Shown here: positions 21,729 to 54,278 of the stretch, piece by piece
Position numbering within the stretch: position 1 is the stretch's first letter
How the letters are laid out: each line of letters opens with the position of its first letter
DNA from: Fibrobacter sp.
GTDB lineage: Bacteria > Fibrobacterota > Fibrobacteria > Fibrobacterales > Fibrobacteraceae
Length of the DNA stretch: 64,000 nucleotides
Direction: 5' to 3'
Assembly (NCBI GenBank): GCA_024398845.1
Contig: JAKSIM010000010.1
Location: 1-64,000, forward strand
Made by a program: the position numbers and the translations under genes
Notes under the pieces: model-generated
What the model saw: only the letters and a program-made list of their open reading frames with translations
The model's database searches: none
What the model was told of the DNA's origin: nothing

Positions 21729-22679
21729 TTACTTGACAATGATCTTCTGGCTGAAGTCAACAGACTTACCAGCAACGCGGACCATGTAGACACCGGCGTC
21801 GATGTAAGTGAGGTCGAGAGCAGCGGTAGAGCTCACGTCACCCTTAGCAACAACCTGACCCTGGAGGTTCATCACTTCAGCAGAAGCGACAGACTTGATT
21901 CCAGAGAAGGAGAGCATACGGCCAGCAAGCACAGCCTTCACAGCGGAAGCGGCGCGAACCTGCGGGATAGCCGATCCACCATCGCAAGGAGCACCATCGT
22001 TGCTAGACACACCGACGATGTTGAATGAACCACTGGTACCATCCTTGGCCTGAATCTTGAACTTCACGCTAGCAAGAGCAGCAGCGGCTTCGGGACCGGT
22101 AACCTTGCCCTTGCCCCAGCCAGCCTGCTTAAACATAGCCCAATCCTTACAAACCTGAGCGGGAGAATCTTGTGCAGGAAGGCTTACGAACGGGTTGTCG
22201 TAACCGATTTCGCCATCTCTGGTATCGCCGAGGCCAAGTTCCAAAGTTGCCTTAGAGCTTGACGTATAGGTAATGCAAATACCACCCCAGCTAGTGACAT
22301 CAGCCGGCTGAGCTTCGCCGCCAGTTTCGGTTTCTGTACCAGCAACGTTAAAGCCAATACCAATGAACGGATCATAGGTAATCGTGCCAGCATTCAAGGA
22401 AAAATCACCACAAACGCCACCGCACTGGTCGATAACCGGGTCGAGAGCGTCTTCGGAGTACTCGTTACCCAAATCTGTCGGCCATGTCACCGTAGACTGA
22501 CCACCATCAGCATCATCCCCATAGTTATACCAGTAACCAGAAGTATTGGTGCCATTATCGAGTTCGGTGTTTACGAAGTAATCACCGGATTCGGTAGACA
22601 TAGCGCCAGTCCAGCACATTGCAGAAGCAAGGCCGGCAGCAGCAAGAATCGCCGAAGCAGTAAGAATTTTCTTAGTCAT
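21729..22679 (-). CDS. Secreted protein with T9SS-type C-terminal domain, possibly carbohydrate-binding
   Basis: The 316-residue protein has a signal peptide (cut after about GLASA), a Cys-containing beta-rich middle (about 22-225) and a C-terminal sorting domain (about 232-316: LSFSGIKSVASAEVMNLQGQ ... LDLTYIDAGVYMVRVAGKS). The middle part, with SGYWYNYGDDADGGQSTVTWP near its start and SWGGICITYTSSSKATLELGL further in, is like family-11/CIA30-type carbohydrate-binding modules found in Fibrobacter surface proteins. It lies between GH8 and the divergent GH5 gene, which suggests a role in plant polysaccharide binding. It lacks any hydrolase motif. Binding is inferred. Confidence 0.75.
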   Translation of the reverse strand: MTKKILTASAILAAAGLASAMCWTGAMSTESGDYFVNTELDNGTNTSGYWYNYGDDADGGQSTVTWPTDLGNEYSEDALDPVIDQCGGVCGDFSLNAGTITYDPFIGIGFNVAGTETETGGEAQPADVTSWGGICITYTSSSKATLELGLGDTRDGEIGYDNPFVSLPAQDSPAQVCKDWAMFKQAGWGKGKVTGPEAAAALASVKFKIQAKDGTSGSFNIVGVSSNDGAPCDGGSAIPQVRAASAVKAVLAGRMLSFSGIKSVASAEVMNLQGQVVAKGDVSSTAALDLTYIDAGVYMVRVAGKSVDFSQKIIVK

Positions 22680-23111
22680 AAGTCTCTCTCTTTTTTAATT
22701 GTTTTTAGCCCTTTTTGGCTGTTCAACAGCTAATATATCTTTTTTTTTCACGTTTTTGCAATATTTTTTTCAAAAATGTCAAAAAAACGTAATTTTCATC
22801 TCATTCTTTTATCAAGAGCGCTTTTTTTCCCTCATTTTCGCAACAAAGTTCCTTTTTTTTTACAACCTTGTTTTTTATTACAAAATTCTGCCATCACAAT
22901 TCTTGTGCGTAGAGTCACAAGTCCTTGGTACGCAACTTTTTATTTACCTTTTACAAGATAATTTCAACATCTTAAAAATTATTTTTAAGTTGCGTGTATA
23001 GTGTATTCATACAAAAGCAAGCCGCGTATTCAACGGTAAACACAAAAAGCAAACCAACCCAAGCCCCTTTTGAAAGAATAAACTATCTTGTTAAAAAATT
23101 TAGGAGTTTAT
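22680..23111. promoter_or_regulatory. 432-bp AT-rich divergent promoter region between secreted protein and GH5
   Basis: This gene-free spacer serves two divergent secreted-protein genes. It is dominated by T and A runs and holds no credible ORF. A TATAGT at 22997-23002 is a possible -10 box for the GH5 gene, about 110 bp before its ATG, but no good -35 is seen at the right spacing. TAGGAG lies 6-11 bases before the GH5 ATG and fixes its start. Confidence 0.35.
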
Positions 23112-25340
23112 ATGAATTTTAAAAAGCTACTCCCCTGCCTTCTTGCCTTTGCAGTGATTTCTGCATTTGCCAGCGGAACTACCGCGGTTCCTAAAAAAAT
23201 AGGCCCGGTCAGCTACTACGGAGCCCTCCACACCAGTGGCGGGAAAATTATTGGTGCCAAAAACAACCAAGAGGTAATGCTTCGCGGCATGAGTTTATTC
23301 TGGTCCGACGCAACAGGTCTGCCGTATTACAAAAAAGACGTTATCAGTTGGGCCGTCGACAACCTGAAAATGGACGTTTTCCGTTTTGCCATGGGTATTA
23401 CCTGCTACTCTAGTACTAAGCAGCAGTCCAATGGTTGCGTAGACAGCGCAGATTCACTCTTTAACGGATACTCTTACGTCTCGGATCCCAGTGGCTATAA
23501 AGGCGTTGTTGACCGAATGGTCGAAGCCGCTGTCGAAAACGACGTGTATATTATTATTGACTGGCACAGCCATCGTGCGGAACACGAAAAAACGCAGGCA
23601 AACAGCTTCTTTAAAGAAATTTCTGCAAAGTACGCCAATATTCCTAACGTCATTTACGAAATCTATAACGAACCCGTCAATACCGACTGGGGAACTATCA
23701 CTAGTTATGCAAATTCCATAACTTCCGCCATTCGCGCCAACACCGAAAATTTGGTTCTCGTAGGCACGCCCAGCTGGTCTCAGTTGACCCAATACGGTGG
23801 AGTTAACGGAACAAATGTCGGCTACGTATTCCACTTCTATGCAGGCACTCACACTGTCGGTACCTTTGGCAGCCGCATTACTGCCGCCAAGAACAGTGGT
23901 AACCCGGTGTTCATTACCGAATGGGGTACCGTCAATGCCGATGGCGCAGGCTCCGCGAACGCAGGCAACACAAACGATTGGATTCAGTTCATGGAATCCA
24001 ACAAGATTAGCAACTGTAACTGGAGCCTTCGTCAAACCAACGGCAAGGAAACTTCCGGCATGTTCGACGGTAGCACAGAACTCACTTCTCAAGGACTACT
24101 TTCAAGTGCAACCTACAGTGCCTCTGGCAACATTGTCAAAAAATACTTGACCGAACACGGCCAATCCTGGGCAGATTCCCTCCTCAAGGGTAAAAACTCT
24201 GGCAGCTGCGCATTCAAGGCAGCCAAGGCTAAAGAAACAGATGGAACTCTTTCTGGCGTCCTGAAATCAGGATGCACCTACACCTCCAGCAACGAAAATG
24301 TCGTAACTATTTCTGGAACAGACCTCGCCATTCATAGCGCTGGCTACGCCATATTGACCGGCAACGACGGATCCGAAAGCGCCGTAATCATTAGTGAAGT
24401 CGCTAAGCAGAGCATTTCTAACTTTGCCGACATGTACTGCCGTTATGGCGAAGTAGATCCTCATACTTGCTCTATTAACCGAGGCGCAAACTTCTCCGGC
24501 TCGAATTCTTCGAGTGCGACCTTCGAATGGATTCTAGGCATGGAGAAAAAGACCCTTGAAGGAGCCACGTACACCATCAAGTCTTTAAATCCAGATATTG
24601 TTGACATAAAAACAGCCAAATGCACAAACAAGACCTATTGCTCAACGACTCAAAAAGAAGCAAATTCCGTTATTATGTACGTATTCAAACAATTCGGAGA
24701 GGCAAAGATTGTTGCAACGGCACCGGCTGTTACCGGCTATACGGCTATGAATGACACAATTACCGTCACCTACCGTAAAGCCGAAAATAAGTTCCCTCGA
24801 ACTTTCAAAGGCAGGACCATAGCTTTGGGAGCGACCGCTTCCGAAGCAGCTCCAAATAAGAATACCTCGGGAAATCCGATAACCTACTCATTCAACGGCA
24901 AAGAAACCTCCCCTTACTTGTCCATCTCAGGTAGCGACCTTGTTGCAGGGAACCAAAACGCGATAATTCAACTTGACGCACGTATCGCAGAAACCGACAC
25001 CCACGAAGAAGGTTCCATGACTGTAACCATCATTGTCGGCGACTCCGCAAGCGCCGTAAACAAGGACGAATACTACAAAACCTCTATTCCAGCCCTTTCT
25101 ACCGCAAAATCCGGTGTACAGGCCCAGTTCAACAACAAGGGAATGTTACTCACCTCCAATTCCAGGAGTCCGCTCGAAGTATCGATCTTTAGCGTAAATG
25201 GAGAAAGGGTGTTCCACAAGACCGTGAACTTAAGCCTTGGCACGCGCTTTATTTCACTGGGCGAACTTAAGGCAGGCAACTACATTGCAAACGTCAAGCA
25301 AGACGGGACCTTGAGCGTGTTCAATTGGTCTAAGCAGTAG
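23112..25340 (+). CDS. Secreted GH5 endoglucanase with C-terminal beta domains and T9SS-type sorting end
   Basis: The start is the ATG at 23112 with AGGAG just upstream; a TTG 24 bp earlier gives no signal peptide. The 742-residue protein has a signal peptide ending near SAFASG, then a GH5 TIM barrel (about 25-320). The acid/base Glu is in IYEIYNEPV (Glu187), the nucleophile in VFITEWGTV (Glu270), and the substrate-site IIDWHSH is present. GH5 enzymes of this layout (subfamily 2-like) are retaining endo-beta-1,4-glucanases. Two or three beta-rich domains of unknown type follow, the last resembling a cadherin-like fold (YSFNGKETSPYLSISGSDL), and the end (LEVSIFSVNGERVFHK ... GELKAGNYIANVKQDG) is a T9SS-type domain. 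It is probably surface-bound or secreted. Confidence 0.93.
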   Translation: MNFKKLLPCLLAFAVISAFASGTTAVPKKIGPVSYYGALHTSGGKIIGAKNNQEVMLRGMSLFWSDATGLPYYKKDVISWAVDNLKMDVFRFAMGITCYSSTKQQSNGCVDSADSLFNGYSYVSDPSGYKGVVDRMVEAAVENDVYIIIDWHSHRAEHEKTQANSFFKEISAKYANIPNVIYEIYNEPVNTDWGTITSYANSITSAIRANTENLVLVGTPSWSQLTQYGGVNGTNVGYVFHFYAGTHTVGTFGSRITAAKNSGNPVFITEWGTVNADGAGSANAGNTNDWIQFMESNKISNCNWSLRQTNGKETSGMFDGSTELTSQGLLSSATYSASGNIVKKYLTEHGQSWADSLLKGKNSGSCAFKAAKAKETDGTLSGVLKSGCTYTSSNENVVTISGTDLAIHSAGYAILTGNDGSESAVIISEVAKQSISNFADMYCRYGEVDPHTCSINRGANFSGSNSSSATFEWILGMEKKTLEGATYTIKSLNPDIVDIKTAKCTNKTYCSTTQKEANSVIMYVFKQFGEAKIVATAPAVTGYTAMNDTITVTYRKAENKFPRTFKGRTIALGATASEAAPNKNTSGNPITYSFNGKETSPYLSISGSDLVAGNQNAIIQLDARIAETDTHEEGSMTVTIIVGDSASAVNKDEYYKTSIPALSTAKSGVQAQFNNKGMLLTSNSRSPLEVSIFSVNGERVFHKTVNLSLGTRFISLGELKAGNYIANVKQDGTLSVFNWSKQ

Positions 25341-25392: not shown

Positions 25393-26445
25393 TTACAAGT
25401 AGGTATTCACGAAGCGTTTTATAAACTCAGAATCTTCACACAGCCAGTGTTTTTCTTCCATAGACTGATATTGCCAGGAAATGGCCCTCATATAATTATC
25501 AGGGTCACACAGAGCATTGAATTTAGCATCTAGTTCTTCGGGACTGCCGGCCTGGTTCACAAGCTGTTCCTTGGGGATATAGCTATATGGGCTACCGGCA
25601 AAATCACTACCTAAGAATACGGCGCCCAATGCGGCAGCTTCTTTTACCTTCAAATCACTCTTTGCCTTGTTGAAATCAATATTGCACAAGGGAGCCAAGT
25701 AAAAGTCCGGTCGATAGCTCGCCGCTGTTGATGGGAATTGCATCATACTCGTATACGGAATCGTTGTATACTTTCCTTCGAGGCCATTCAAAAAAGTGGG
25801 ATTGCCAAACACGTAAAAATCAATAGAACCCTCTTCGATGCGCTTACGCAGCCAAGGCACCCACGGGCCCTCAAAATCACCCAAATCATCCGGAGTACAG
25901 TGTCCTAACGCCCCTGCATACATAACCTTGGGAACCCCCGTAAACGGAGCGGTAGTCTTATGGCTACCAAACAGGGAACCCGACACTCCATTGGGCACAA
26001 CCACGGCATTGGCTCCAAGATCACTCTTGATGCGGTTCGCCAAATACCTGGTAGAGCAAGCAACCACATCGAAAAGCGGCAAAATCTGCTTATAGCGATT
26101 AGCGACAATAGCTTCAACATCGCCGAGTCCCTGGGCGCGGGCTTTAATAATTGGAGAAAGGTCCCACTGAAGGTCGTCGATATCAGTCACCAGCTTAAAG
26201 CCGCATTCCTTTTTTAGCTTGGCGTACATCATTACCACTTCCATTTTGCCCGATGCCGTAGGACGTGGAATAATGATTGAACGAACTTTTTTTAGAGTCT
26301 CCTTGCTAGTACATGTCAAATGCGTAATAGACGGATATACCTGGTATTCATTAGCACGCATAAGTTGCATCAAAGGTAAAATGCACCTCACCCAATCGGA
26401 CTGCGCCATGTCGCTCGGATGCATAATCGCATGTAGTTTCGTCAT
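25393..26445 (-). CDS. GT-B-like glycosyltransferase, copy 2 of 2
   Basis: The 350-residue protein is a close paralogue of the gene at 16875-17924. Shared stretches include EGPWVPWLRKRIEEGSIDFY, LHPSDMAQS/MHPSDMAQS, KLVTDIDDLxW, CSTRYL and NKAKSDLKxKEAA. Both have an Asp-rich VTDIDDL segment and a Pro-Asn-x-Val near the middle, as in group-1 (GT-B) glycosyltransferases. It has no signal or membrane helix. The two copies differ mainly between residues 98 and 170, perhaps the acceptor side. It is separated from the next operon by a terminator and probably has its own promoter. Substrate unknown; a role in LPS or surface glycan is a guess. Confidence 0.7.
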   Translation of the reverse strand: MTKLHAIMHPSDMAQSDWVRCILPLMQLMRANEYQVYPSITHLTCTSKETLKKVRSIIIPRPTASGKMEVVMMYAKLKKECGFKLVTDIDDLQWDLSPIIKARAQGLGDVEAIVANRYKQILPLFDVVACSTRYLANRIKSDLGANAVVVPNGVSGSLFGSHKTTAPFTGVPKVMYAGALGHCTPDDLGDFEGPWVPWLRKRIEEGSIDFYVFGNPTFLNGLEGKYTTIPYTSMMQFPSTAASYRPDFYLAPLCNIDFNKAKSDLKVKEAAALGAVFLGSDFAGSPYSYIPKEQLVNQAGSPEELDAKFNALCDPDNYMRAISWQYQSMEEKHWLCEDSEFIKRFVNTYL

Positions 26446-26462: not shown

Positions 26463-26494
26463 AAAAAAACCTTCCCCATTTTTGAGGAAGGTTT
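26463..26494 (-). terminator. Terminator of the six-gene outer-membrane operon
   Basis: A 9-bp perfect stem (26467-26475 with 26486-26494) is followed on the minus strand by TTTTTTTGA. It lies 25 bp past the last gene of the operon. Confidence 0.9.
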
Positions 26495-26518
26495 CAAAAA
26501 TTCCTTGCTAAGGCAAAA

Positions 26519-27577
26519 TTACTTTTTCTTCTTCGGCTTGTAATCCATATCAGGGCGAATCTGCAAGCCAATCGTCACCAACAAGGAGATAATCGGTTCG
26601 TGATGATCCTGAGAGAGGTCATAAACGGCAACGCCACCCATGCCATCGGCCTTCACCTGTTCAGCAACAGCTTTCACAGACGGGATGCCCATGAACACGA
26701 TAGCTTCAGATGAGCTAACGGCAAGTTCCGACTTGCTGGATTCATCAAAAGTAACCTTGTAATCGGGAGTATTGAACTTGCCCATCAATTCGGCATAGGA
26801 GAGGTAACCTTCGTTACCGCTACCCGTACCTTGGTGAGCAGAACCATAACCAGTAGCTCCGAGGAAAGATTTGCCATAGAGGTAAACAACCGGCACCAAG
26901 AGGCTTTTTTCTACGCCCTTTTCGGCAACGGCGTTCAAGCCCTGTTGAATGGATTCAGCACCCTGGTTCGGCTCAAGAGCAGACGTTTCTTCGGTCATCT
27001 TATCGGCCATGAATACATCCACATAGGCTAGGCGATTCAAAGCTTCGGCAGAGTAACCGTCCATGCCAGCATCCGGATAAACAGTACTGGTTACAATGGA
27101 GCCAGACATGCCATCGACAAAAGCATTGAGCATTGCGGCATAAGCTTCGGCGTCTTCACCGGTCAAGTTCTGCCAGTCAAGTTCAACACCGTCACCACCG
27201 TTTGTAGAAATCCATTCCTTCACGTTGGAAACGAACGTCGGGAGAACTTCTTCGGAAGTAGCGATGGTCTTCAGGGCGCCCTCGGCTTCGGCACCACCCA
27301 CAGAAACCACGAGCTTTACGCCGTTTTCCTTGGAAAGTCTAACAAGTTCCTTGAAATTTTCGGCATCATTTTCATCGGCAAAAGCCACGGAACCATCTTC
27401 ACTGGGAACCAAGTTGGCATAGTGAATGTTGGTCACCAGATTGTAGCGAATATCCTTAGGGTAGAACTGGGAATATTGGCTCCAATAAGGATAGAAGCCA
27501 ACAATCTTGTCTGCAGCAGCCTGAGCCGTTACAGCAAAGCCTAAAGTCAAAGCTAGAGCAAGTACTTTAATATTCAT
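26519..27577 (-). CDS. GH18-fold secreted protein with catalytic Glu replaced by Gln (pseudo-chitinase)
   Basis: The 352-residue protein has a signal peptide (cut after about TAQA) and a GH18 TIM-barrel layout: KIVGFYPYWSQY at the first strand, TNIHYANLVP, KLVVSVGGA at strand 3, and the catalytic strand GGDGVELDWQN at 128-137. The family motif is DGxDxDxE; here it reads D129-G-V-E132-L-D134-W-Q136, so the proton-donor Glu is Gln and the second Asp is Glu. Such proteins are typically lectin-like glycan binders rather than hydrolases. The C-terminus ends in a Lys run. It is the last gene of the operon 26519-35932, 12 bp after the lipoprotein gene. I infer a non-catalytic glycan-binding or complex-forming role. 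Confidence 0.85.
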   Translation of the reverse strand: MNIKVLALALTLGFAVTAQAAADKIVGFYPYWSQYSQFYPKDIRYNLVTNIHYANLVPSEDGSVAFADENDAENFKELVRLSKENGVKLVVSVGGAEAEGALKTIATSEEVLPTFVSNVKEWISTNGGDGVELDWQNLTGEDAEAYAAMLNAFVDGMSGSIVTSTVYPDAGMDGYSAEALNRLAYVDVFMADKMTEETSALEPNQGAESIQQGLNAVAEKGVEKSLLVPVVYLYGKSFLGATGYGSAHQGTGSGNEGYLSYAELMGKFNTPDYKVTFDESSKSELAVSSSEAIVFMGIPSVKAVAEQVKADGMGGVAVYDLSQDHHEPIISLLVTIGLQIRPDMDYKPKKKK

Positions 27578-27589
27578 AACAACCTCGCC

Positions 27590-28489
27590 TTACTTGATTT
27601 CGCGAACCACGCCGCTATCATCAACGCAATATAGTTTCGTAACAGGATAAACTTCTGTAATAGCAGGATTACCCGCTTCCGCTTCGGTGCACTTGCGATA
27701 AGCCCATCCATTATCACGACCAAACATCGAATATTGCAGGCTGATGGCCAGAGTGTCTATTTTGATTTCACGCAAAGCAGCCAAATCATCTTCGGTATCC
27801 GTAAAATTGAAATTCTTCAGGAATGTGATGTCATTTTTTTGAGGACCGGTTCCCGGCACAGAATCCGGAACAGTCACACACGCAGAAGAATCAACTACAG
27901 AAGAGCCCATTTTTGAGCCCTTCATTACCCAAACGGAATCTCCAATATCAAATTCTTGAAGAACGCTATCGACCATGCCAGAAACATGAACCATTTTATC
28001 TGATTCCATAACACCAGCCGGTTCAACAGTAATAGGCTCTTGCAGTTTGATATCAATCGTATCAACTCCAGATTCCGCTTCGGCAGAAGCTACAAGCTTT
28101 TGCACGTTAAGCGTGACAAACTTTTTCCCGCAAGTTGTTTTTTCAGAAACAACCGGCAGCCAAAGATTTTCCCAATACGTTTCCGAATAGCCCGCATAAA
28201 TCGGATTCACCATGATTTCGTGCAGCAAATCCATGTTGGCCTCAAAAGCAGCCTGGTCCGCAGCAATTTGTTCGTTAGTCTGGGCATTCTTAACAGCAGC
28301 ATTGTGACTTTTCACATAGTCACGAATTTGCAAACTAACCAACTCGGGGTGCAGTTGCGCATACTCGGCGTTATTAAAATCGCTCGGAAAATTCTCCGAC
28401 ACAGCCTCGGAATCGGAAACATCCATAGACGAGCATGCAACCATAGATATTGCCGCAACAGAAATCAAATATTTATTAAGAAGTTTCAT
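27590..28489 (-). CDS. Lipoprotein of the outer-membrane operon, family unknown
   Basis: I prefer the ATG at 28489 (MKLLNKYLISVAAISMVAC), which has AGAGG seven bases upstream; the ATG two codons earlier lies only one base from that site. The 299-residue protein has a lipobox MVAC, then a helical segment (about 30-105, FNNAEYAQLHPELVSLQIRD) and a mixed C-terminal part with several Cys residues (TTCGKK, SSACVT, YRKCTEAE, LYCVDD). I do not recognise the family. It lies 11 bp after the 713-aa barrel gene and 12 bp before the GH18-like gene, so a tight association with these is likely. It may tie the barrels to the soluble glycan binder. Confidence 0.8.
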   Translation of the reverse strand: MKLLNKYLISVAAISMVACSSMDVSDSEAVSENFPSDFNNAEYAQLHPELVSLQIRDYVKSHNAAVKNAQTNEQIAADQAAFEANMDLLHEIMVNPIYAGYSETYWENLWLPVVSEKTTCGKKFVTLNVQKLVASAEAESGVDTIDIKLQEPITVEPAGVMESDKMVHVSGMVDSVLQEFDIGDSVWVMKGSKMGSSVVDSSACVTVPDSVPGTGPQKNDITFLKNFNFTDTEDDLAALREIKIDTLAISLQYSMFGRDNGWAYRKCTEAEAGNPAITEVYPVTKLYCVDDSGVVREIK

Positions 28490-28500
28490 TTGCATACCTC

Positions 28501-30642
28501 TTAGAAATTCACCGTGATATCGGCAATGATTACGTTCTTATCAATGGCGAGCTCATTTGTCGAAGGAGTCAACATTGCGTTACCCTCGGCATCAACCGTA
28601 GGCAACATGGCATTAAGCAAAAGTTTGTCCTTAAGCAAGCCGTACTGTACAGACAGGTAAGAATTCGGAGCAATCTTAACGCGCGGTCCAACCAAGAGCA
28701 TGAGTTCTTCGGCCTTGCTGAGGCTCACGAGTTCGTTAATCGGAAGTGCCACATCAAACTTCTTATTGAACATCTGCAAACCGGCGAGGAAGCTGACCGG
28801 ACCGTAAATGTCAGCGGCGAGACCAGCCATAATACGGTCACTAGAGCGCATATAACCAGCATCTTCCTTAGCATGGTCATAGGACCCCTGAATAATGATA
28901 TCGTTATCACCGAGCAAAAGCTTACCGATATTTGCAGAAATGCCTGCTGCATATTCCGTATAGGTGTTGCTTGCGGCATCCTGCTTAACCTGAGCAAAGT
29001 AACCATTGAGCGTGATGGCATCATTCCAGGTTGCATTCAACTCAACATTGAAACCCTTGCGATCCGGAGTGGCCAAACCAAACGGCATAGCCATATTCAC
29101 GGTCGGATCAAGAACGAACAGAGCCTGGTCCATTTCAAGAGCCTTGATAGTTCCGGCATCGTATCCGTTGCGGTAAAAATGAGCACTCTTGTAGTTGTTG
29201 TACACTTTGGAGAACAGATACTGAGATTCATCGGTATTCGACATGGCATTAGTCAAAGAAGCCGAAGTCATGAGATTCGTCAAGTTGAGCGGGTTAGTAT
29301 TGTACACAGCCATATACATATTTTCGAGGCTGGACATACCATAGCTCGCAATGGCGCTCCTATAAATATCATTTGAGTAAATGGCGTTTGCATTCAGCAC
29401 AACGCTGTTACCGCGATAGTTAGGAGCAGAAGCCATTTCAGACCAGAATTTTTCATCGGTCTGCAAGTAGGTTGCCTTCAACTCGCCTTCAATACCAGCT
29501 ATATCAGCCTTCACATACGGAGTCACGTAAAAACTCTTGCCATCGTTGCTAGCAACATCCTCATTTATGTAAGTATCATAATTTGTGGGAACAGTACTTA
29601 CGTAAATAATCGACATTCTACTATCATCTATAACTACGGATGCTTCAGAAACTCTGTATTCGGATTTAGAAGCGTTAGTAAAATAGTCCATGTCGGCGTC
29701 CCACTTGGACATGGCGAATTCACCGTTCAAACCAAAAGAAACCGGCAAAGACGAAAGCATCTTCTTGGAATCAAAGCCAGCCTCAATAGAGAAAATGGCA
29801 TTGTTTTCGTAGTAGACGGAGTCATCGGATTCGAGTTTTTCGGAACGGCGGGTCTTTTTACGATCAAACACATCTGTGTAGTTGACGCCAAGGTTGGCAC
29901 CAAAAGCACTTGCGCCAAGACGAGCGCCGTAGAAATAACGATCAGACCAATCGAAATCGAAAAACACCTGGTCATTTTTCTTAGCAACGTTACGAAGACG
30001 GGCTCCAGTCAACTGGGCATGAATGTCATCGACAGGGCCAAGAGCTCTGCTGTGGTAATCGACATTCAAACCTTGCAGCAAACGACGGGAGGTCGTATCC
30101 AAATTACGCTGAGCCAAGGCATCGATGCGCTTTTCGGTAAAGATTAGCGGTTCTTGCACAAGGAACGTCTGCGGGACATTAAGGGTAAGCGGAGTATAAC
30201 CAACACGCATATAACCCAAATTAAAGTCCAAATGCTTGTTCAAAATAGAACCATCATAACTGAACCAATGGCCAATTACAGGGTTGTTGTTTTCATCAAA
30301 GCCACTCTGCCAATCCTTATGGAGGCGAAGTTGAACATTGACCATAGTCTCGCTACTGGGACGAGCCGTCAACACGAGATTCACATCGGAATACGCTTGA
30401 GTTTCGCTCGTCGGAGAATTTTCACTAAACTGATCCGAAGAAGCCATAGAAGCAAGAGCGCCGGCTTTTGCGGTACCGTTTAACTTAAGGCCAAGTACGG
30501 ATTCCTGAAGAGAATCCAACTTTTCTAAGAGAGATTTCTGCTCTTTGACAACTTCCTGATCGCCAGCAGCGAAAGCCGCGGCTGCAGAAAGCAAAATTGC
30601 AGAAGTGAGAGCGATTGTACGATTTTTCATATTGAAATTCAT
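28501..30642 (-). CDS. Outer-membrane beta-barrel protein 3 of the operon (713 aa)
   Basis: GGGAGG lies 8 bases before the ATG. The protein has a signal peptide (cut near AAAAFA), a short helical heptad-like segment (EQKSLLEKLDSLQESVLGLK) and then alternating amphipathic strands to a C-terminal Phe (IIADITVNF), the usual BAM recognition end. It shares with the 747-aa neighbour the block GYMRVGYTPLTLNVPQTFL and, further on, RRLLQGLNVDYHSR, which match GDFRQQYSPLTLFLPGF and RNLQGVNLQFRA there. There is no TonB box, plug domain or OmpA domain. It is probably a large barrel for transport or adhesion. No named family is recognised. Confidence 0.8.
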   Translation of the reverse strand: MNFNMKNRTIALTSAILLSAAAAFAAGDQEVVKEQKSLLEKLDSLQESVLGLKLNGTAKAGALASMASSDQFSENSPTSETQAYSDVNLVLTARPSSETMVNVQLRLHKDWQSGFDENNNPVIGHWFSYDGSILNKHLDFNLGYMRVGYTPLTLNVPQTFLVQEPLIFTEKRIDALAQRNLDTTSRRLLQGLNVDYHSRALGPVDDIHAQLTGARLRNVAKKNDQVFFDFDWSDRYFYGARLGASAFGANLGVNYTDVFDRKKTRRSEKLESDDSVYYENNAIFSIEAGFDSKKMLSSLPVSFGLNGEFAMSKWDADMDYFTNASKSEYRVSEASVVIDDSRMSIIYVSTVPTNYDTYINEDVASNDGKSFYVTPYVKADIAGIEGELKATYLQTDEKFWSEMASAPNYRGNSVVLNANAIYSNDIYRSAIASYGMSSLENMYMAVYNTNPLNLTNLMTSASLTNAMSNTDESQYLFSKVYNNYKSAHFYRNGYDAGTIKALEMDQALFVLDPTVNMAMPFGLATPDRKGFNVELNATWNDAITLNGYFAQVKQDAASNTYTEYAAGISANIGKLLLGDNDIIIQGSYDHAKEDAGYMRSSDRIMAGLAADIYGPVSFLAGLQMFNKKFDVALPINELVSLSKAEELMLLVGPRVKIAPNSYLSVQYGLLKDKLLLNAMLPTVDAEGNAMLTPSTNELAIDKNVIIADITVNF

Positions 30643-30657
30643 GCTAACATCCTCCCT

Positions 30658-32901
30658 TTAAAATTCCACATTAAGGGAAGCTTCAATGATAAACTGGCTA
30701 AACTCATGCTTGTATGCACCGTTATCCTGATTCACATCGTAATAGACCGGAAGATTGTAGACTGGCACTTCATTTGCTTTTTCTACCGTTACAACACCCG
30801 GTTTAATCGTAGAGCCAGAAGCAGCAAGAGTCTTAACTTCAGAAGTATTGTACTCGTTGCTAACCGAGATTTGGCCAAGATTCAAAGAAAGCCAAGCATT
30901 CTTTTCGATGGAGTAATCAAGTCCCACCATCCATTGCATTTGCTTACCCTTCATCAACGGAGCTACAAGTCCAGACATTCCAGCTTCAACATCGTTATAT
31001 TCGGTGTTGATCATCTGGAGACCCGCCGTAAAGCCAAGACGCGGGAGGTATTGAGCATAGAAACCAACGTTAATGAAGTCGCTCTTGAGCTCGCCAGAAG
31101 CGCCCGATTCCAAATCGGCCTTGCGTTCGGAATGCTTGTAAGAACCAGAAATTTCAAGCGGTTTGGAGAAGCCCAAAGCCTTGAAGATATCGACCTTGGC
31201 ACCACCACCGTATTCCATGAAGTTCACACCAGAGAAGCCCACCATCGGAGAAACCATGTTCATAAACGTGAACAAGCCCTGAACTTCGGCAAAGTCATTG
31301 AAGGACGCCTTAATATTCGTCTGGGCGCCCACGCGGTTTGACGTAGCGAAACCATTCGGGAGGGCCATCTGAATAGCCGGATCAGCAAGAGCAGCAAGAA
31401 GAGCCAACTGGTTGCGATTGTAGACGTTCGTGGTGTAAGAGTTCTTATTGTAGTTTGCAATGTTATAGCTATTGGTTTGACCACCATCAAAAGCAGCATC
31501 ATCTGTGCCCATAGTCTTAGACACCGGAGAGAACTTCGGTGCAAAGTTATAAAGAGCGTCAAAGGTGCTGTAAAGCGGAGAAGTCACAGCAAACTTTACC
31601 GTTTCGCCATCAATGTCGGAATTGAGAATGCGCTGGGCAAAGAAGTTCGAAGACTGGGCGGCGTTATTGAACCAGTTACTGTCGTTGTAAACGACATTCA
31701 CATCCATCTGGATACCCCAGGCGTCAGTTTTGTAACCAGCATCAATGGTTGCCAAAACAGCAATGCCATTTTCAGTTTCAGAAGTCGCAACATCCTTAAG
31801 CACCGGATTACCATCGGCATCAAGAACAGGAACCTGAGCCTCGTCAACAACCGGAGCAAGGGAATGAGCATAAACCTTATCCATGGAAACGGCAACTTCA
31901 GCAGTAGCGTCCAAAGTCAAGTTCTTGTTCCCCATAAATCCGGCAACATCACCACCTATACGGCCACTAAAGACCATTGTCTTTTGGGCATCCTTTTCAA
32001 GCGGATTAATATCCTCATAAACATAAGGATTTGAAATTAAGCGCTCACCTTCTTCATTGAAGTCATGACGTTGCGTATAAGAGTAAGACCCTTCAACATC
32101 AAAGATGTACATGCCTGTAGCACCGACGTAAAGGTTCCTATTCATCGGGAACAATTCAAAGTTACCAGCGGCAAGCCACTTGTCCATATTAGTAGCAAGT
32201 GAAGCGCCGGCAATGTTCTCGTTCGGCAAAATATTGCCTTCGGCACCGGAAAAGTCCAAAACAGCATTGCGATTCAAGCGAGCCATCAAACCTTCGGCAC
32301 GGACTTCACCAAGCATCGGGTCAAGCATTGCACGGAACTGAAGGTTGACACCCTGCAAATTGCGCTGGTTGCCTTCAATCAGCTGGGACTTTTCGGCCAT
32401 GTGGCGCTGGCGTGCAAAAATCGTCGGTTCGTACATAATGTCAAAGCCCGGCAAGAAAAGGGTCAGCGGAGAATATTGCTGGCGGAAGTCACCCGCAACC
32501 CAGTAAAAGTTCTTGCCCACATTGCCTTCGACATTAATCCATTCCACAGAAATGCTCTTAGCAGCGGAAGCGAAGTATTCTTGCATACCGCCTTCCAAGC
32601 GCATCATCAAGTTCGCTCGAACATTTTCGTACGGACGGAAATGGAAATCGAGATCGGCTGTGACAAATTCATCTTTTTCAACATCCGGCATTTTATTCAA
32701 GCCAGTCGGATCTTGGTCTGTATTAAAATAGGAGGCTTCGGCAACGCCACGAATGGAACCTCCGAATTCCACGCCACGCTTCGCGTTAATGGAGTCAACC
32801 TTGCTTTCCAGCGAATTCTGGTTTTCATAAACCTGTGATGCGGAGGCCGCCACAGTTGTTGCAAGGAGGGCAATCAAAGATTTTTTCATGTTCATATTCA
32901 T
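30658..32901 (-). CDS. Outer-membrane beta-barrel protein 2 of the operon (747 aa)
   Basis: GAGGGG lies 9 bases before the ATG of MNMNMKK. The protein has a signal peptide (cut near ASAS), a helical stretch NQNSLESKVDSINAKRG and then strand-rich sequence to a C-terminal Phe (FIIEASLNVEF). The middle third has long loops rich in Asn, Asp and aromatic residues, as in surface-exposed barrel loops. It is homologous to the 713-aa protein by the FRQQYSPLTLFLPGF and LQGVNLQFRA blocks and more weakly to the 749-aa protein (SPLTMWERETMPRFAW). There is no TonB-dependent receptor plug. The gene is 15 bp from each neighbour, so the three barrels are made together. Confidence 0.8.
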   Translation of the reverse strand: MNMNMKKSLIALLATTVAASASQVYENQNSLESKVDSINAKRGVEFGGSIRGVAEASYFNTDQDPTGLNKMPDVEKDEFVTADLDFHFRPYENVRANLMMRLEGGMQEYFASAAKSISVEWINVEGNVGKNFYWVAGDFRQQYSPLTLFLPGFDIMYEPTIFARQRHMAEKSQLIEGNQRNLQGVNLQFRAMLDPMLGEVRAEGLMARLNRNAVLDFSGAEGNILPNENIAGASLATNMDKWLAAGNFELFPMNRNLYVGATGMYIFDVEGSYSYTQRHDFNEEGERLISNPYVYEDINPLEKDAQKTMVFSGRIGGDVAGFMGNKNLTLDATAEVAVSMDKVYAHSLAPVVDEAQVPVLDADGNPVLKDVATSETENGIAVLATIDAGYKTDAWGIQMDVNVVYNDSNWFNNAAQSSNFFAQRILNSDIDGETVKFAVTSPLYSTFDALYNFAPKFSPVSKTMGTDDAAFDGGQTNSYNIANYNKNSYTTNVYNRNQLALLAALADPAIQMALPNGFATSNRVGAQTNIKASFNDFAEVQGLFTFMNMVSPMVGFSGVNFMEYGGGAKVDIFKALGFSKPLEISGSYKHSERKADLESGASGELKSDFINVGFYAQYLPRLGFTAGLQMINTEYNDVEAGMSGLVAPLMKGKQMQWMVGLDYSIEKNAWLSLNLGQISVSNEYNTSEVKTLAASGSTIKPGVVTVEKANEVPVYNLPVYYDVNQDNGAYKHEFSQFIIEASLNVEF

Positions 32902-32916
32902 TTTCAGCTACCCCTC

Positions 32917-35166
32917 TTAGAACCAGACCTTGGTTTCTGCAGCAATGTAATGAGAATGCCAATTGTTATCAGAAATCAACTCGTCAGAATGGGTCATAAA
33001 CTTATAGCGGAAATGCAAACCGGCTCGGTCAGCAAAGTCCCAATCGAAGCCAAGGCCAAAAGCCGTTTCCAAATAATTGATTGGAGCTTTCTTGTAGTAA
33101 GCTCCCATATATGTTCCCAGCAAATCAGACTGCTTTGACACAGTAGATGCAGCAGAAACCGCAGTATAGGCATTTTCAGAGCGGAAGGTTTCCATACCAA
33201 AGATACCTACCATGTGGAACTTCGGAGTCACCGCCACAGACGGTTCAAACTGCGTGTAGAAACTCCAAAGCAGCATATCCTTTTGGGATTCGCTATAGGC
33301 AATCGGAGCAAAAGAAGTTGAAATACCAGAAAGAGCAGCATACAAAGTCATCATGATAGTGCGATCTGTACCGAACCAGCCACCAATGTCATAGCCACCC
33401 ATAAAGGACATATAGCTAGACCACTTGGTATGTTCAGGAACTTCGCCTTCCTTGATTTGCTCCGCATTTTCGTAAGCAACAAAGCCTTCCCAAAGTTCCC
33501 AGGTTCCACCATAGAGACCACCCTGTTGACGATACTGTTTGATACCATCACCAGAAGACTGCTGAACACCGGCACGGGCAACATAGGCGGTATTGCTGGC
33601 GTTACCCGAGTCCGCAATAAACAACGGTTTGTGCTTGGTCCAGGAGTTGGTACCTTCCCACATGTTACGACCGTTCAAACGATAGTTGAAGAAAATCATG
33701 TCCTGACCATCTTCGATTTGACGATGCTGACCATACTGGAAATCAAAGTAACCGCGATTGAAAGTCGGTTCCAACTTGAAGTTGAGGCCTGCCATATTCG
33801 GGGTATAACGGAGAGAACCACCATTCAGGTAGGCTTCGTTCTTACGCCAGCTCGGGAAACGGGACGGGTTCCCCAAGGAATAAGGAGAGTAGAAATCTTT
33901 CGGAAGGTAGATGGCTTCAACAGTCATTGGCCACCCCTCTACATACTTGCTCTGGGCCTTCAAGTAGAAGCCCACCTGCGGCGTATTGGTTTTAGATTCG
34001 TAAGCGTCGGCCATATAGCCCGATGCGATATTAGATTCGGCATAATCAGCAGCCAGCGGAGAACGATAGTATCTCAGAGAATCGGTAATATTCAAGGCGA
34101 GGTCAGCCATCAAATACAACTTCGGAGTAACGTTACCCTTAACGTCAATTGAAGCTACATGCGTATTTAAAAGGGTCGGTCCCACATCAGAGAAGTTAAT
34201 CCACTGTAAACGATATTCACGTTCATAAATGGAAGCTTCATCATACATAACGCCCATGTAGTTCAAACCGAGGGTCAAATTATCCAGAATCTTTTCTTTA
34301 GCAATGCGTCCATGATAAACGGAACCTCGCAAATCATAGGTACCAGACATTTCGAGTTCACCCGGCTGACCACCATACATACGGAGACCATCACGAGTAG
34401 CCACGTCGGCATCAGCCGGCTGGGAAACCATGAACTGAGCCTTCAAGTTAAACGGCAACTGGTACACGTTCATGAACACGCCACCAAAGGAACGGTTGGT
34501 CCAGAAAGCACGACCACCTTCCTTCACCGGCTTAAAGACCTTCTCTTTATAATAGGTACTGACCGTCTTTTCGTCTTCGAACAATTCGTACTGCCAAGCG
34601 AAGCGCGGCATGGTTTCACGTTCCCACATGGTCAAAGGAGAAGCGTTTGCCCAAATCACGCCACCAGCGGTAACGTATGCACCGAACACGCCAGCGCGGA
34701 TATCCACACCGAAGTTCATTTCTTCGTTGATGGTCGAACTGAAGTAGTCGGTCGAGTGGTCATAAAGAACACGGTCGTCGTACGTTTCAGCACCCGTCGG
34801 CTGAGAACCAAGGTAGTTGGAATACAGACCACTCAGGTCGAACGGGAAAGACATAGATGACCAAAGGGTCATATAGGAGTTCGGCATGGCGACCACGTTG
34901 ACATTCAACACGGCGTCAACCGGCGTACGAGCCCTATCGTTCTGGACCCACGGGCTTTCTTCGGAATAATGGAAATTCTTGACACGGAACGCCATGTAAC
35001 CGGAGACCGCCAACGGCAGATCGTCCTTACCCATGAGGGTAGATTCCATGTTTCCAGAAAGCGTGTCCAAAGATGCGTTAATAGAATCAAGCTGCACCTG
35101 AGGAGGCATTGCCCAAGCAGCACCAAGGCAAGAAGCAAGAAGAATCGATGTAATCGTTTTTTGCAT
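32917..35166 (-). CDS. Outer-membrane beta-barrel protein 1 of the operon (749 aa)
   Basis: AGAGG lies 5-6 bases before the ATG. The signal peptide ends near AAWAM. The mature N-terminus has a short coil (VQLDSINASLDTLSGNME), then amphipathic beta strands and many aromatic residues to a C-terminal Phe (HYIAAETKVWF). Its block VIWANASPLTMWERETMPRF corresponds in place to the SPLTL block of the two neighbours, but overall it is the most diverged of the three. Trp, Tyr and Phe abound in predicted loops (TNSWTKHKPLF, YGGTWELWEGFVAYE), which suits sugar binding. It is 19 bp after the carbohydrate-binding-like gene. No named family is recognised. Confidence 0.78.
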   Translation of the reverse strand: MQKTITSILLASCLGAAWAMPPQVQLDSINASLDTLSGNMESTLMGKDDLPLAVSGYMAFRVKNFHYSEESPWVQNDRARTPVDAVLNVNVVAMPNSYMTLWSSMSFPFDLSGLYSNYLGSQPTGAETYDDRVLYDHSTDYFSSTINEEMNFGVDIRAGVFGAYVTAGGVIWANASPLTMWERETMPRFAWQYELFEDEKTVSTYYKEKVFKPVKEGGRAFWTNRSFGGVFMNVYQLPFNLKAQFMVSQPADADVATRDGLRMYGGQPGELEMSGTYDLRGSVYHGRIAKEKILDNLTLGLNYMGVMYDEASIYEREYRLQWINFSDVGPTLLNTHVASIDVKGNVTPKLYLMADLALNITDSLRYYRSPLAADYAESNIASGYMADAYESKTNTPQVGFYLKAQSKYVEGWPMTVEAIYLPKDFYSPYSLGNPSRFPSWRKNEAYLNGGSLRYTPNMAGLNFKLEPTFNRGYFDFQYGQHRQIEDGQDMIFFNYRLNGRNMWEGTNSWTKHKPLFIADSGNASNTAYVARAGVQQSSGDGIKQYRQQGGLYGGTWELWEGFVAYENAEQIKEGEVPEHTKWSSYMSFMGGYDIGGWFGTDRTIMMTLYAALSGISTSFAPIAYSESQKDMLLWSFYTQFEPSVAVTPKFHMVGIFGMETFRSENAYTAVSAASTVSKQSDLLGTYMGAYYKKAPINYLETAFGLGFDWDFADRAGLHFRYKFMTHSDELISDNNWHSHYIAAETKVWF

Positions 35167-35185
35167 AAAAACCTCTTAAACCCTC

Positions 35186-35932
35186 TTAAATCTCGTTGCG
35201 GAACGGATAGTTGGCCGGGCCTTCATAAGGCTTGCCATGTTTCTTGATGACAATATCATCTATCCAAACCTTGAAGGATTCATTTTCATCCTTGCGGACT
35301 TCAAGACGGAAACCCTTGAAGTTTGACCAGGAGAACGGGAGCATCACTTCACGAGTGTTCTTTGCATCCCAGTACACACCGGTCATGCCGAACAACTTCA
35401 GAGGAATACTAAAATGTGTCCATTCTGTGGTAATTTCGCCAAGGCTCTTGGAACGGAGCTTCACCTGGAGGGATTCGCCACCGCTCTTCACGCCGTCATC
35501 AACAAGCACGAACAAGGCGTTTTCACCGCCCTTGGCACCCTTGATCCAAAATTCCAGAACACCCTCTTCCAAGTACGGAGTTAAATCCACAGAACCTGCG
35601 ATACAAATGGCGACACCGGAATAGTCACTAGCAATAAGTTCAATTTCCATGGCCAAGGCACCTTCCATAGCGCCAGCCTTTTCTGTAAGAACCGGTTCCG
35701 GGTTTTCACGAGGGTATTGGTAGGTATAGCCACCTCCACGCGGAATAGCCTCACGCATAACAACGCTGACAACATCCTTATCAGGGCGGAACGGCTTTCC
35801 TTCCTTAGTGATAAAACGAGCTTGGTCACGGTCGCGATAATCGCTAAAACCATAGCCAGCAAAAGACGATGAAGCAAGAAGTAGGCCCGCTAAAGCACAC
35901 TTCCAAAGGGCTTTTTTAAAGTTTCCATTCAT
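35186..35932 (-). CDS. Secreted CBM11/CIA30-like carbohydrate-binding protein
   Basis: The 248-residue protein has a signal peptide (cut near SSSFA) and one jelly-roll-like domain: ALAMEIELIASDYSGVAICI, LEFWIKGAKGGENALFVLV, TEWTHFSIPLKLFGM, FKGFRLEVRKDENES and a final VWIDDIVI. This is the pattern of family-11 and CIA30-type carbohydrate-binding modules: two sheets, Trp near the ligand face, and a terminal IDDI strand. It is the first gene of the six-gene operon and lies divergent from the GH5 lipoprotein gene. It should be periplasmic or exported to the surface. It probably binds glucans, but the ligand is inferred. Confidence 0.75.
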   Translation of the reverse strand: MNGNFKKALWKCALAGLLLASSSFAGYGFSDYRDRDQARFITKEGKPFRPDKDVVSVVMREAIPRGGGYTYQYPRENPEPVLTEKAGAMEGALAMEIELIASDYSGVAICIAGSVDLTPYLEEGVLEFWIKGAKGGENALFVLVDDGVKSGGESLQVKLRSKSLGEITTEWTHFSIPLKLFGMTGVYWDAKNTREVMLPFSWSNFKGFRLEVRKDENESFKVWIDDIVIKKHGKPYEGPANYPFRNEI

Positions 35933-36176
35933 AATTGGTAAAAGTCTCCAAATTCGAATAGCCTATAATATAGTTTGTTTTTTGGAAACCCGATTTTAAG
36001 TTTTGACAAAAAAAGTACACAAACCAAACATTTTACGAAAAAAAACACCAATTTTTCACTTTTTTTACTTGTTTTTTGAGTTTTCGCTTGTAAACACTTT
36101 ATTTTTTTTACGAAGTATGTTCATTCAAAAAAATAATTACTTTTGTTTACAGAGAAATTTCCCTTTTGAGGTTTAT
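35933..36176. promoter_or_regulatory. Divergent promoter region between the outer-membrane operon and the GH5 lipoprotein
   Basis: This 244-bp AT-rich spacer has to drive both the six-gene operon (minus) and GH5 (plus). CTATATTATAGG near 35964 is a candidate -10 area on the minus strand. On the plus strand TTGAGG precedes the GH5 ATG by 6 bases. No operator palindrome stands out. Shared control of the operon and the enzyme is likely from the layout. Confidence 0.4.
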
Positions 36177-37313
36177 ATGGGTATCAAGTTTTTTTTATCT
36201 ATCGCTCTAGGATTTAGTCTTATCGCCTGTACAAGCGATAGCAAGCCCCCTGCCGCCCCAGAAACATCTAGCAATTCTAACGAAGAAGTTTCCGTAAAGC
36301 CCGTAGATTATTCCAAAGGTCGAGCCATGAACAAGCGCCTTGGCAAGGGAATAAATTTGGGAAACTCTTGGGATTCCCAGGGTTATGATGATGGCGGGTG
36401 GAGCAACCCCATTGAAGATAATTTCTTTAAAATTATCAGTAACGCAGGCTTCAACTCTATAAGACTCCCCGTACGGTGGCAATTTGATTCCGATTACGGG
36501 AGCCATACCGTAAGTCCGGACCGTCTCGCAGGTGTCAAGGAAGATATTCAACTTGCCATTGATAACGGCCTCGCCGTCATTGTGGATTTTCACCACTATG
36601 TAGAGCTATTCGATCTCGGCAATGCAGCCAACCGAGGCAACGCCGATAGCGTAGCATTATTTGCTAAAGAAAAAGAACATTTCCTCGCCATGTGGAAACA
36701 AGTGGCCACAGAACTTGACGTATTCCCGGACTCGCTCCTCGTTTACGACGTAATGAATGAACCTACAATTGCAAACGCCGATATTGTGAACGACTTGACC
36801 ATGAGCGCCTACGAAGTCATTCGCGCCGCGGCTCCAGGCAAAACCATCATGTTTGAGGCTTACCATGCGGCAAAATTCGCTGACCTGGAGGTTCTCAAGC
36901 TTCCAGAAGACGGAAACATTATTTATAGCGGTCACTACTACGAACCCTACACCTTCTCGCACCAAGGCAACGGCTACGCATGCAAAGGTGACGAAGCATA
37001 CTCGAACACAGCAAAAGCGGACATAAAGAACTACGCCGCCCTCGCCACAAAACTCTACCCCGACGTGAACGGTGGACACATCCCCATGAACATGGGAGAA
37101 TTTGGCATTTCGGGGCAAAGCAACTGGCAGTGCGACAAAGACGGTCCTAGCGACAAGTACAAATCCATGTGGACTAAGCTCACTATAGAAGCTGCCGAAA
37201 CATACGACATCTCTTGGCATTATTGGGGATTTGTCGGCGTGGGCGGTTTTGAAGCTTACGACAAATACGAAAACAAATGGCTCCCGGGATTCCCGACGGC
37301 GTTTGGCCTGTAA
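36177..37313 (+). CDS. GH5 cellulase-type lipoprotein
   Basis: The true start is the ATG at 36177 (MGIKFFLSIALGFSLIAC) with GAGG six bases upstream; the reading frame is open further upstream but that part is low-complexity AT-rich sequence. The 378-residue protein has a lipobox LIAC (Cys18), a short Pro/Ser/Asn linker and a GH5 barrel (about 47-378). Catalytic residues are Glu195 in YDVMNEPT (acid/base) and Glu308 in NMGEFGIS (nucleophile); INLGNSWD, SIRLPVRW and VIVDFHH are also typical. It should hydrolyse beta-1,4-glucans or related polymers at the cell surface. It is divergent from the outer-membrane operon, and its stop codon is only 2 bp from the stop of lpxA. Confidence 0.92.
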   Translation: MGIKFFLSIALGFSLIACTSDSKPPAAPETSSNSNEEVSVKPVDYSKGRAMNKRLGKGINLGNSWDSQGYDDGGWSNPIEDNFFKIISNAGFNSIRLPVRWQFDSDYGSHTVSPDRLAGVKEDIQLAIDNGLAVIVDFHHYVELFDLGNAANRGNADSVALFAKEKEHFLAMWKQVATELDVFPDSLLVYDVMNEPTIANADIVNDLTMSAYEVIRAAAPGKTIMFEAYHAAKFADLEVLKLPEDGNIIYSGHYYEPYTFSHQGNGYACKGDEAYSNTAKADIKNYAALATKLYPDVNGGHIPMNMGEFGISGQSNWQCDKDGPSDKYKSMWTKLTIEAAETYDISWHYWGFVGVGGFEAYDKYENKWLPGFPTAFGL

Positions 37314-50075: not shown

Positions 50076-50144
50076 ATCTTGAATATACTTAATATCGGTA
50101 ACAAATAAAGCCCACACCCACGAATTTGCGTTTTCACAAGGAAA

Positions 50145-50173
50145 CAAAAAACCCGATTCCATTCGGAACCGGG
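50145..50173 (-). terminator. Terminator of the ABC importer operon
   Basis: The stem 50165-50173 with 50152-50160 (one mismatch) and a 4-base loop is followed on the minus strand by TTTTTTG. It lies 50 bp past the last ABC gene and separates the operon from GH9. Confidence 0.85.
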
Positions 50174-50224
50174 ATTTTAAATTTGCATTTCGATTCACGC
50201 GATAACGCGAGACTCGCCTTACAA

Positions 50225-52022: not shown

Positions 52023-52033
52023 TTTTTTACCTC

Positions 52034-52879: not shown

Positions 52880-52881
52880 GA

Positions 52882-54267: not shown

Positions 54268-54278
54268 TTGTCGTCCTT

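Follow-up and report, generated by a model that had tools for sequence, protein, structure and literature searches.

A conserved six-gene operon of Fibrobacter as a probable outer-membrane import system for cellulose fragments

In the SusCD-type polysaccharide utilization loci (PULs) of Bacteroidota, surface glycan-binding proteins and outer-membrane barrels are encoded together with glycan enzymes. Barrels for sugar uptake are also represented by the glycoporins (LamB, ScrY and chitoporin), which have 16-18 strands and their own Pfam families. In addition, Cytophaga hutchinsonii carries an atypical Bacteroidota cellulose PUL, chu_1276-chu_1280, which encodes an outer-membrane cluster with a non-catalytic protein resembling a carbohydrate-binding module (CBM) that is essential for cellulose use (PMC12016534). 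Here, we analyzed a stretch of 64,000 nucleotides from Fibrobacter sp. (the window; positions 1 to 64,000 of contig JAKSIM010000010.1, assembly GCA_024398845.1, 2.77 Mb in 88 contigs). The named assemblies closest to it in the retrieved set are of rumen Fibrobacter. The window contains a six-gene operon (genes A to F), which we consider probably to be an outer-membrane import machine for β-1,4-linked oligosaccharides, that is, cellodextrins in Fibrobacter. This reading is based on the relatives of its barrels elsewhere in the phylum, which adjoin importers and enzymes for cellulose and chitin sugars.

Compared with the described systems, the operon appears Sus-like in role but unrelated in parts. 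In the role proposed here, it shares with the SusCD PULs the combination of surface glycan-binding proteins, outer-membrane barrels and glycan enzymes. However, it has no SusD, its barrels B, C and D have no TonB plug and belong to a different family, and the inner-membrane step would be carried out by ATP-binding cassette (ABC) importers. Compared by description, it resembles the C. hutchinsonii cluster as an outer-membrane cellulose cluster with a non-catalytic CBM-like protein. B, C and D are like the glycoporins in their proposed role, but they have 22-26 predicted strands and match no family. Gene F can be compared with chi-lectins, e.g., YKL-40, in which the GH18 fold is kept and the catalytic acid is replaced; unlike these, F is reported to bind cellulose and is kin to chitinases encoded beside a chitin-type operon of the same phylum. 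Finally, the F. succinogenes cellulase Fisuc_3111 (CBM30-CBM30-CBM11-GH51) resembles the protein of about 1050 amino acids (aa) that replaces A in other families, whereas only the CBM30 protein remains in the Fibrobacteraceae operon.

Organization and conservation of the operon

The operon consists of the following features:
35186-35932, minus strand: gene A, secreted single-domain CBM30 protein (Pfam CBM30)
32917-35166, minus strand: gene B, predicted 749-aa outer-membrane β-barrel of a new family (AlphaFold; no Pfam or NCBIfam match)
30658-32901, minus strand: gene C, predicted 747-aa outer-membrane β-barrel of a new family (AlphaFold)
28501-30642, minus strand: gene D, predicted 713-aa β-barrel, paralogue of C (profile comparison)
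27590-28495, minus strand: gene E, fast-evolving lipoprotein (lipobox ...MVAC)
26519-27577, minus strand: gene F, GH18 pseudo-chitinase (Pfam; catalytic Glu absent)
about 26463-26495, minus strand: intrinsic terminator of the operon (13-bp stem and T-run just after F)

All six open reading frames (ORFs) lie on the minus strand between 35932 and 26519, with intergenic gaps of 19 (A-B), 15 (B-C), 15 (C-D), 5 (D-E) and 12 bp (E-F), which bears out the initial annotation of six co-directional genes separated by short gaps (here 5-19 bp). The single strong terminator proposed for the operon end was also found. Its 13-bp hairpin, followed by a T-run, has a minimum free energy of -22.1 kcal/mol (z -2.7) and was revealed by folding, while a simple consensus terminator scan did not detect it. 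The N-termini of A-F are hydrophobic and consistent with the signal peptides that had been noted, and E carries a lipobox cysteine. For B, C, D and E, no family above cut-off was found in Pfam or NCBIfam.

The operon is widely conserved. C was found in 145 of 168 Fibrobacterota genomes, and B was found by profile in 145 of 168, being absent from 9 of the 89 near-complete ones. The locus set comprised at least 78 loci, all from Fibrobacter relatives and mostly from Fibrobacteraceae. In every locus with A, B, C, D and F (67/67), the order and strand A-B-C-D-E-F are unchanged, an organization far beyond chance. Scattering of the homologues over unrelated contexts, which would have spoken against a joint function, was not observed: wherever a Fibrobacteraceae locus is long enough, the genes stand together. 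Relative to the window proteins, median identities were 87% (A), 71% (B), 68% (F), 55% (C), 52% (D) and 37% (E), which indicates that A is under the tightest constraint and E under the least. One C homologue (G127:C242) has a single in-frame TGA and is otherwise intact; an assembly error is possible.

In F. succinogenes S85, a CBM30-only gene (Fisuc_1525/FSU_2007) and a GH18 gene (Fisuc_1530/FSU_2012) have been described (PMC3079729), and both of these end genes and their cellulose association are already known (PMC3079729, PMC4619616, PMC6851124). Our operon fits Fisuc_1525-1530. Because four locus numbers fit between A and F, gene order and family suggest that Fisuc_1526-1528 correspond to B, C and D, and Fisuc_1529 to E. 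In the searched literature, only both end genes are named, and Fisuc_1526-1529 (FSU_2008-2011) are unmentioned.

Predicted barrels and accompanying proteins

The three large proteins appear to form an undescribed family of outer-membrane barrels. C and D are paralogues (profile comparison, E 5e-98 over 617 columns), and B is a remote relative (probability 94). As in the initial annotation, the last residue of B, C and D in the window is Phe (WF, EF and NF, respectively), and this residue is kept in nearly all homologues (76/76 for B, 71/71 for C and at least 68/71 for D). Structure prediction of B and C gave a large barrel in both cases. The AlphaFold model of B is a single large barrel of about 26 strands (predicted local distance difference test (pLDDT) 74, predicted template modelling score (pTM) 0.77), and that of C is a single large barrel of about 22 long strands (pLDDT 83, pTM 0.83), the strands being counted by hand from the DSSP string. 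Both models begin with a helix followed by the barrel, with no TonB plug, and the model of C has a helical insert of 117 residues (407-523), which might sit in or over the pore. Pfam searches with B, C and D gave no TonB-receptor or plug match, Pfam and NCBIfam gave no glycoporin-family match (LamB, ScrY, OprB, chitoporin), and among PDB sequences the profiles of B and C had no hit up to E 10. By analogy, the N-terminal helices recall porins with a trimerizing coiled coil, which could suggest a hetero-oligomer.

Some further observations were made on these proteins. In B, C and D, a short N-terminal helix (residues ~20-45) precedes the first strand, and its Leu/Ile/Val residues have a heptad-like spacing. 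Among conserved columns, Trp was somewhat enriched in B and D (small counts) and not in C, and this was not used as evidence. Matches of D to GDE_C (Pfam, 0.002) and of C to DUF7019 (Pfam, weak) were below the curated cut-off and were ignored.

The CBM-like and GH18-like sequence recognized initially was assigned by Pfam to CBM30 in A and GH18 in F. A matches CBM30 at E 5e-17 (62.8 bits against a curated cut-off of 27), has a PDB match to the CBM30 structure 1wmx (2e-5), and is 44% identical to residues 59-222 of a 1047-aa CBM30-CBM11-GH51-like protein encoded in the outgroup operon. This CBM family typically binds single cellulose chains (PMC3079729), and Fisuc_1525 is found in the envelope (PMC3079729, PMC4619616, PMC6204037 and PMC4668043, cited together on the operon genes). 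The ORF at the position of E has a strict lipobox in 66 of 70 homologous loci, and FGC or WSC variants in the other 4. A match of E to the BSAP-5b toxin was rejected (E 0.05; 12.9 bits, the cut-off being 380).

F gives a full-length GH18 match (PF00704, 5.3e-31), and in the window protein the DxxDxDxE motif has Q in place of its E. The catalytic Glu is absent in 70 of 70 Fibrobacteraceae loci, being replaced by Q, V, I, L, G or D, and among the phylum's background GH18 sequences it is kept in all 24 whose motif is recognizable (two pairs of which are identical). In the GH18 tree, for which the reading frames of the sequences were chosen by profile, F forms one clade with support 100. Its sister is a group of chitinases with intact motif (support 94, slightly short of the 95 mark); two of these chitinases (G158, G159) adjoin a chitin-type operon. 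F also matches chitinase-3-like protein 1, among others. Since it has lost the Glu and is kin to active chitinases, F is most plausibly a chitinase that has become a binding protein, in line with the listing of Fisuc_1530/FSU_2012 (CBP-9) as cellulose-binding (PMC3079729, PMC6851124). A 2019 study connected a reduced chitinase activity with the lower abundance of FSU_2012 (PMC6851124); because F is without the catalytic Glu, this inference appears doubtful.

Relatives in other families and the inner-membrane importer

Further hints at function come from other families of the phylum (f2, f4, f5, f7, f8 and f11; G and L numbers denote genomes and loci). Outside Fibrobacteraceae, nearly all loci with sufficient contig have a CBM30 protein next to the B-C core, usually a CBM30-CBM11-GH51-like protein of ~1050 aa. 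D was seen only with the B-C-D form, which occurs in f2, in the chitin-type loci of f4 and in Fibrobacteraceae. Of 38 outgroup loci, about 26 have ABC-importer genes next to B-C, and 8 (f5, f7, f11) have a gene of GH94, the cellobiose/cellodextrin phosphorylase family, within 10 kb. If a 5-Mb genome carries about three such genes, the probability that one of them comes to lie within this distance of B by chance is near one percent. Both counts were made by hand and are lower bounds owing to loci at contig ends. In f7 and f11, B-C is followed by the ~1050-aa protein and often by one or two GH94 genes, and an SBP5-Dpp ABC importer adjoins. In f8, mostly an SBP5 protein alone adjoins and the CBM protein is without the GH51 part, and in f5 the GH94 gene is upstream of the core and divergent. 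The importer of f4 is of the unrelated CUT1 type (MalK-like ATPase, SBP_bac_1 and two permeases). The presence of two different importer types at the same place argues for oligosaccharide import.

The attached enzymes also vary with the polymer. Three f4 genomes (G156, G158, G159), which each hold 16-20 GH18 genes, have a B-C-D-GH20-GH18 version, in which CBM30 lies upstream of B if the contig extends that far, and G158 has both this chitin-type version and the CBM30-CBM11-GH51-like one. G156 also has a second, truncated locus with CUT1-type neighbours. G155 has zero GH18 genes and only the CBM30 version, and the f2 genome G041, with 17 GH18 genes, carries A-B-C-D, although the over-extended start of its long B ORF hides the CBM30 gene in the locus tables (L056). 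Enzyme cargo thus tracks the polymer while the barrels stay constant. Of all observations, this one hints most strongly at a handling of β-1,4-linked oligosaccharides by the barrels.

Some side observations concern these loci. A GH94 homologue in G044:C2 has a single in-frame TAG and is otherwise intact; an assembly error is possible. In some f7 genera, a PF00343 carbohydrate phosphorylase follows B-C-CBM30 instead of GH94 (L058:168-4387, L210:16764-19163, L172), and L058 also has a gene like enzyme I of the phosphotransferase system (PTS) after this locus.

The window itself contains a possible inner-membrane partner:
54279-56129, minus strand: SBP_bac_5 solute-binding protein (Pfam), 52% to the protein adjoining B-C in f7
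52882-54267 and 52034-52879, minus strand: dipeptide-type permeases, with starts and ends like the outgroup permeases
51048-52022, minus strand: ATPase, ABC_tran and oligo_HPY (Pfam)
50225-51034, minus strand: second ATPase, assigned from its start sequence only
48267-50198, minus strand: GH9 cellulase after the ABC genes (Pfam)

The region 50225-56129 therefore holds a full importer set (solute-binding protein, two permeases and two ATPases), and its solute-binding protein is the best match in the genome of the one adjoining B-C in f7. Together with GH9, the cluster lies on the strand of the operon, 14-20 kb upstream of it. In four other Fibrobacter genomes, F is directly followed by a GH9 homologue (70-72%), an arrangement that matches the S85 order with Fisuc_1531 after Fisuc_1530. 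Fisuc_1531 is a GH9 protein found only in the periplasm fraction (PMC4668043), and the presence of a cellulase in the periplasm is most readily explained by passage of cellulose fragments through the outer membrane. FSU_1687/1688 are annotated as related to cellobiose/cellodextrin import (PMC6851124). Directly after the GH9-ABC cluster, a DUF4832/DUF4874 protein with a signal-peptide-like start is encoded at 46314-48137.

The flanking GH5, GH8 and GH5 cellulases named in the initial annotation were all recovered by Pfam:
36003-37313, plus strand: GH5 cellulase, divergent, like Fisuc_1523/FSU_2005 (Pfam Cellulase 5.6e-38)
23088-25340: flanking GH5 (Pfam)
20160-21563: flanking GH8 (Pfam)

The divergent GH5 gene is a conserved neighbour in most Fibrobacteraceae loci. 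Weak type IX secretion system (T9SS) C-terminal sorting tails (PF18962, CHU_C) were seen on the secreted neighbours 21729-22679, 23088-25340 and 41282-43411, and the genome has 21 PF18962 matches, most below the curated cut-off. Two related glycosyltransferase-like genes on the same strand, 16875-17924 and 25393-26445, lie ~8 kb apart, and both start with ...HPSDMAQS.WVRCI.PLMQ. The latter, directly after the operon terminator, has only a weak Glyco_transf_4 match.

Proposed mechanism and alternative explanations

From the gene order, its conservation, the predicted barrel fold, the loss of the GH18 catalytic acid and the repeated linkage to importers and β-1,4-glycan enzymes, all of which are read from sequence, we infer a pore function, its substrate, surface placement, physical assembly and a role for E as follows. 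The secreted A (CBM30) and F (non-catalytic GH18) would retain chains or fragments of cellulose on the cell surface, where lipoprotein E probably anchors or couples them, and the barrels B, C and D would form one or more pores passing cellodextrins to the periplasm. There, the cellodextrins would be shortened by GH9- and GH51-type cellulases, transported through the inner membrane by the solute-binding protein and ABC importer, and finally consumed by cellobiose/cellodextrin phosphorylase (GH94). Among these steps, periplasmic GH9, GH94 and the cellulose binding of F have support from annotation or literature. The initial proposal of a surface machine for glycan adhesion or uptake without SusCD gains support from the conserved order and from the linkage to importers and glycan enzymes. 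Its statement that SusC/SusD and TonB-dependent receptors are missing holds for the operon, which encodes neither TonB plug nor SusD (Pfam), and for SusD (PF07980) in the whole genome, where no match was found; it does not hold for TonB-dependent receptors, since two plug-domain receptors are encoded elsewhere in the genome.

Several points weigh against the import function. A TonB-dependent route via these two receptors is possible. The fold searches (Foldseek, VIA) matched the barrels to ushers, TonB receptors, OccK, AlgE and an S-layer porin at similar scores, and chitoporin and LamB were found by Foldseek for C among generic barrels; matches spread over so many kinds show the barrel class, not the family. 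The distance between ABC cluster and operon varies among Fibrobacteraceae genomes, that of the solute-binding protein gene being similar in G102, whereas it lies downstream of F in G145 and far away in several others, and the SBP5-Dpp class also carries peptides. In S85, one study located the CBM30 and GH18 proteins (A, F) partly or mainly in the medium rather than in the outer membrane (PMC4668043), Fisuc_1530 expression was high and constant in RNA-seq without cellulose induction (PMC6204037), and FSU_2012 was 1.3-fold lower in the envelope, i.e., not induced by cellulose (PMC6851124). Constant expression of F nevertheless fits a constitutive cellodextrin route in a specialist. In the searched literature, no transport or binding datum on B, C, D or E was found.

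Three other explanations were considered. The barrels may anchor or scaffold A and F so that cells grip cellulose, with no passage of solutes. Adhesion is crucial for cellulose use in F. succinogenes (PMC6851124), F (CBP-9) is reported as cellulose-binding, A is a CBM30 protein of the envelope, and neither of them looks like a working enzyme. However, three barrels with 22-26 predicted strands exceed the needs of anchoring, A and F are largely released to the medium, and in other families the core has importer and phosphorylase genes as neighbours; we regard adhesion without transport as unlikely. The presence in 145 of 168 genomes and the high, constant expression of the last gene (PMC6204037) would be expected for general-purpose porins of the phylum, which are without glycan specificity and linked to glycans only because sugars are the main nutrient; but the absence from 9 of 89 near-complete genomes, the locus versions that follow cellulose or chitin enzymes, and the CBM30 protein that nearly always adjoins make this very unlikely. 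The least probable explanation is a secretion or assembly platform, in which usher- or SprA-like barrels export the CBM/GH proteins or other enzymes. Although the ushers FimD/PapC were the best VIA matches (Z about 15) and SprA of the T9SS translocon appeared further down the list, TonB receptors and OccK porins reach similar Z values, so that the usher matches indicate a large barrel only. In addition, Pfam gave no usher-domain match, T9SS sorting tails already occur on proteins of this genome, and the neighbours are importers, not secretion genes.

In conclusion, we favour the import of β-1,4-linked oligosaccharides. More tentatively, the loci may belong to a phylum-wide class of glycan importers apart from SusCD, TonB receptors and classical glycoporins; this is a somewhat less than even prospect. 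In such a class, two or three related giant barrels (B, C, D) would form a hetero-oligomer that is capped by CBM30 and works together with a lipoprotein and, in Fibrobacteraceae, with a chitinase-turned-lectin; a change of the attached enzymes would switch the system between cellulose and chitin. The operon gives named pore candidates (Fisuc_1526-1528) and a lipoprotein (Fisuc_1529), tied to an inner-membrane importer and periplasmic GH9, and its last gene, annotated as a chitinase, cannot encode a normal chitinase. We believe that the operon is a strong candidate for how Fibrobacter gut bacteria draw cellulose fragments through the outer membrane. If this is true, a major fibre-degrading phylum owns a counterpart of the Sus system.

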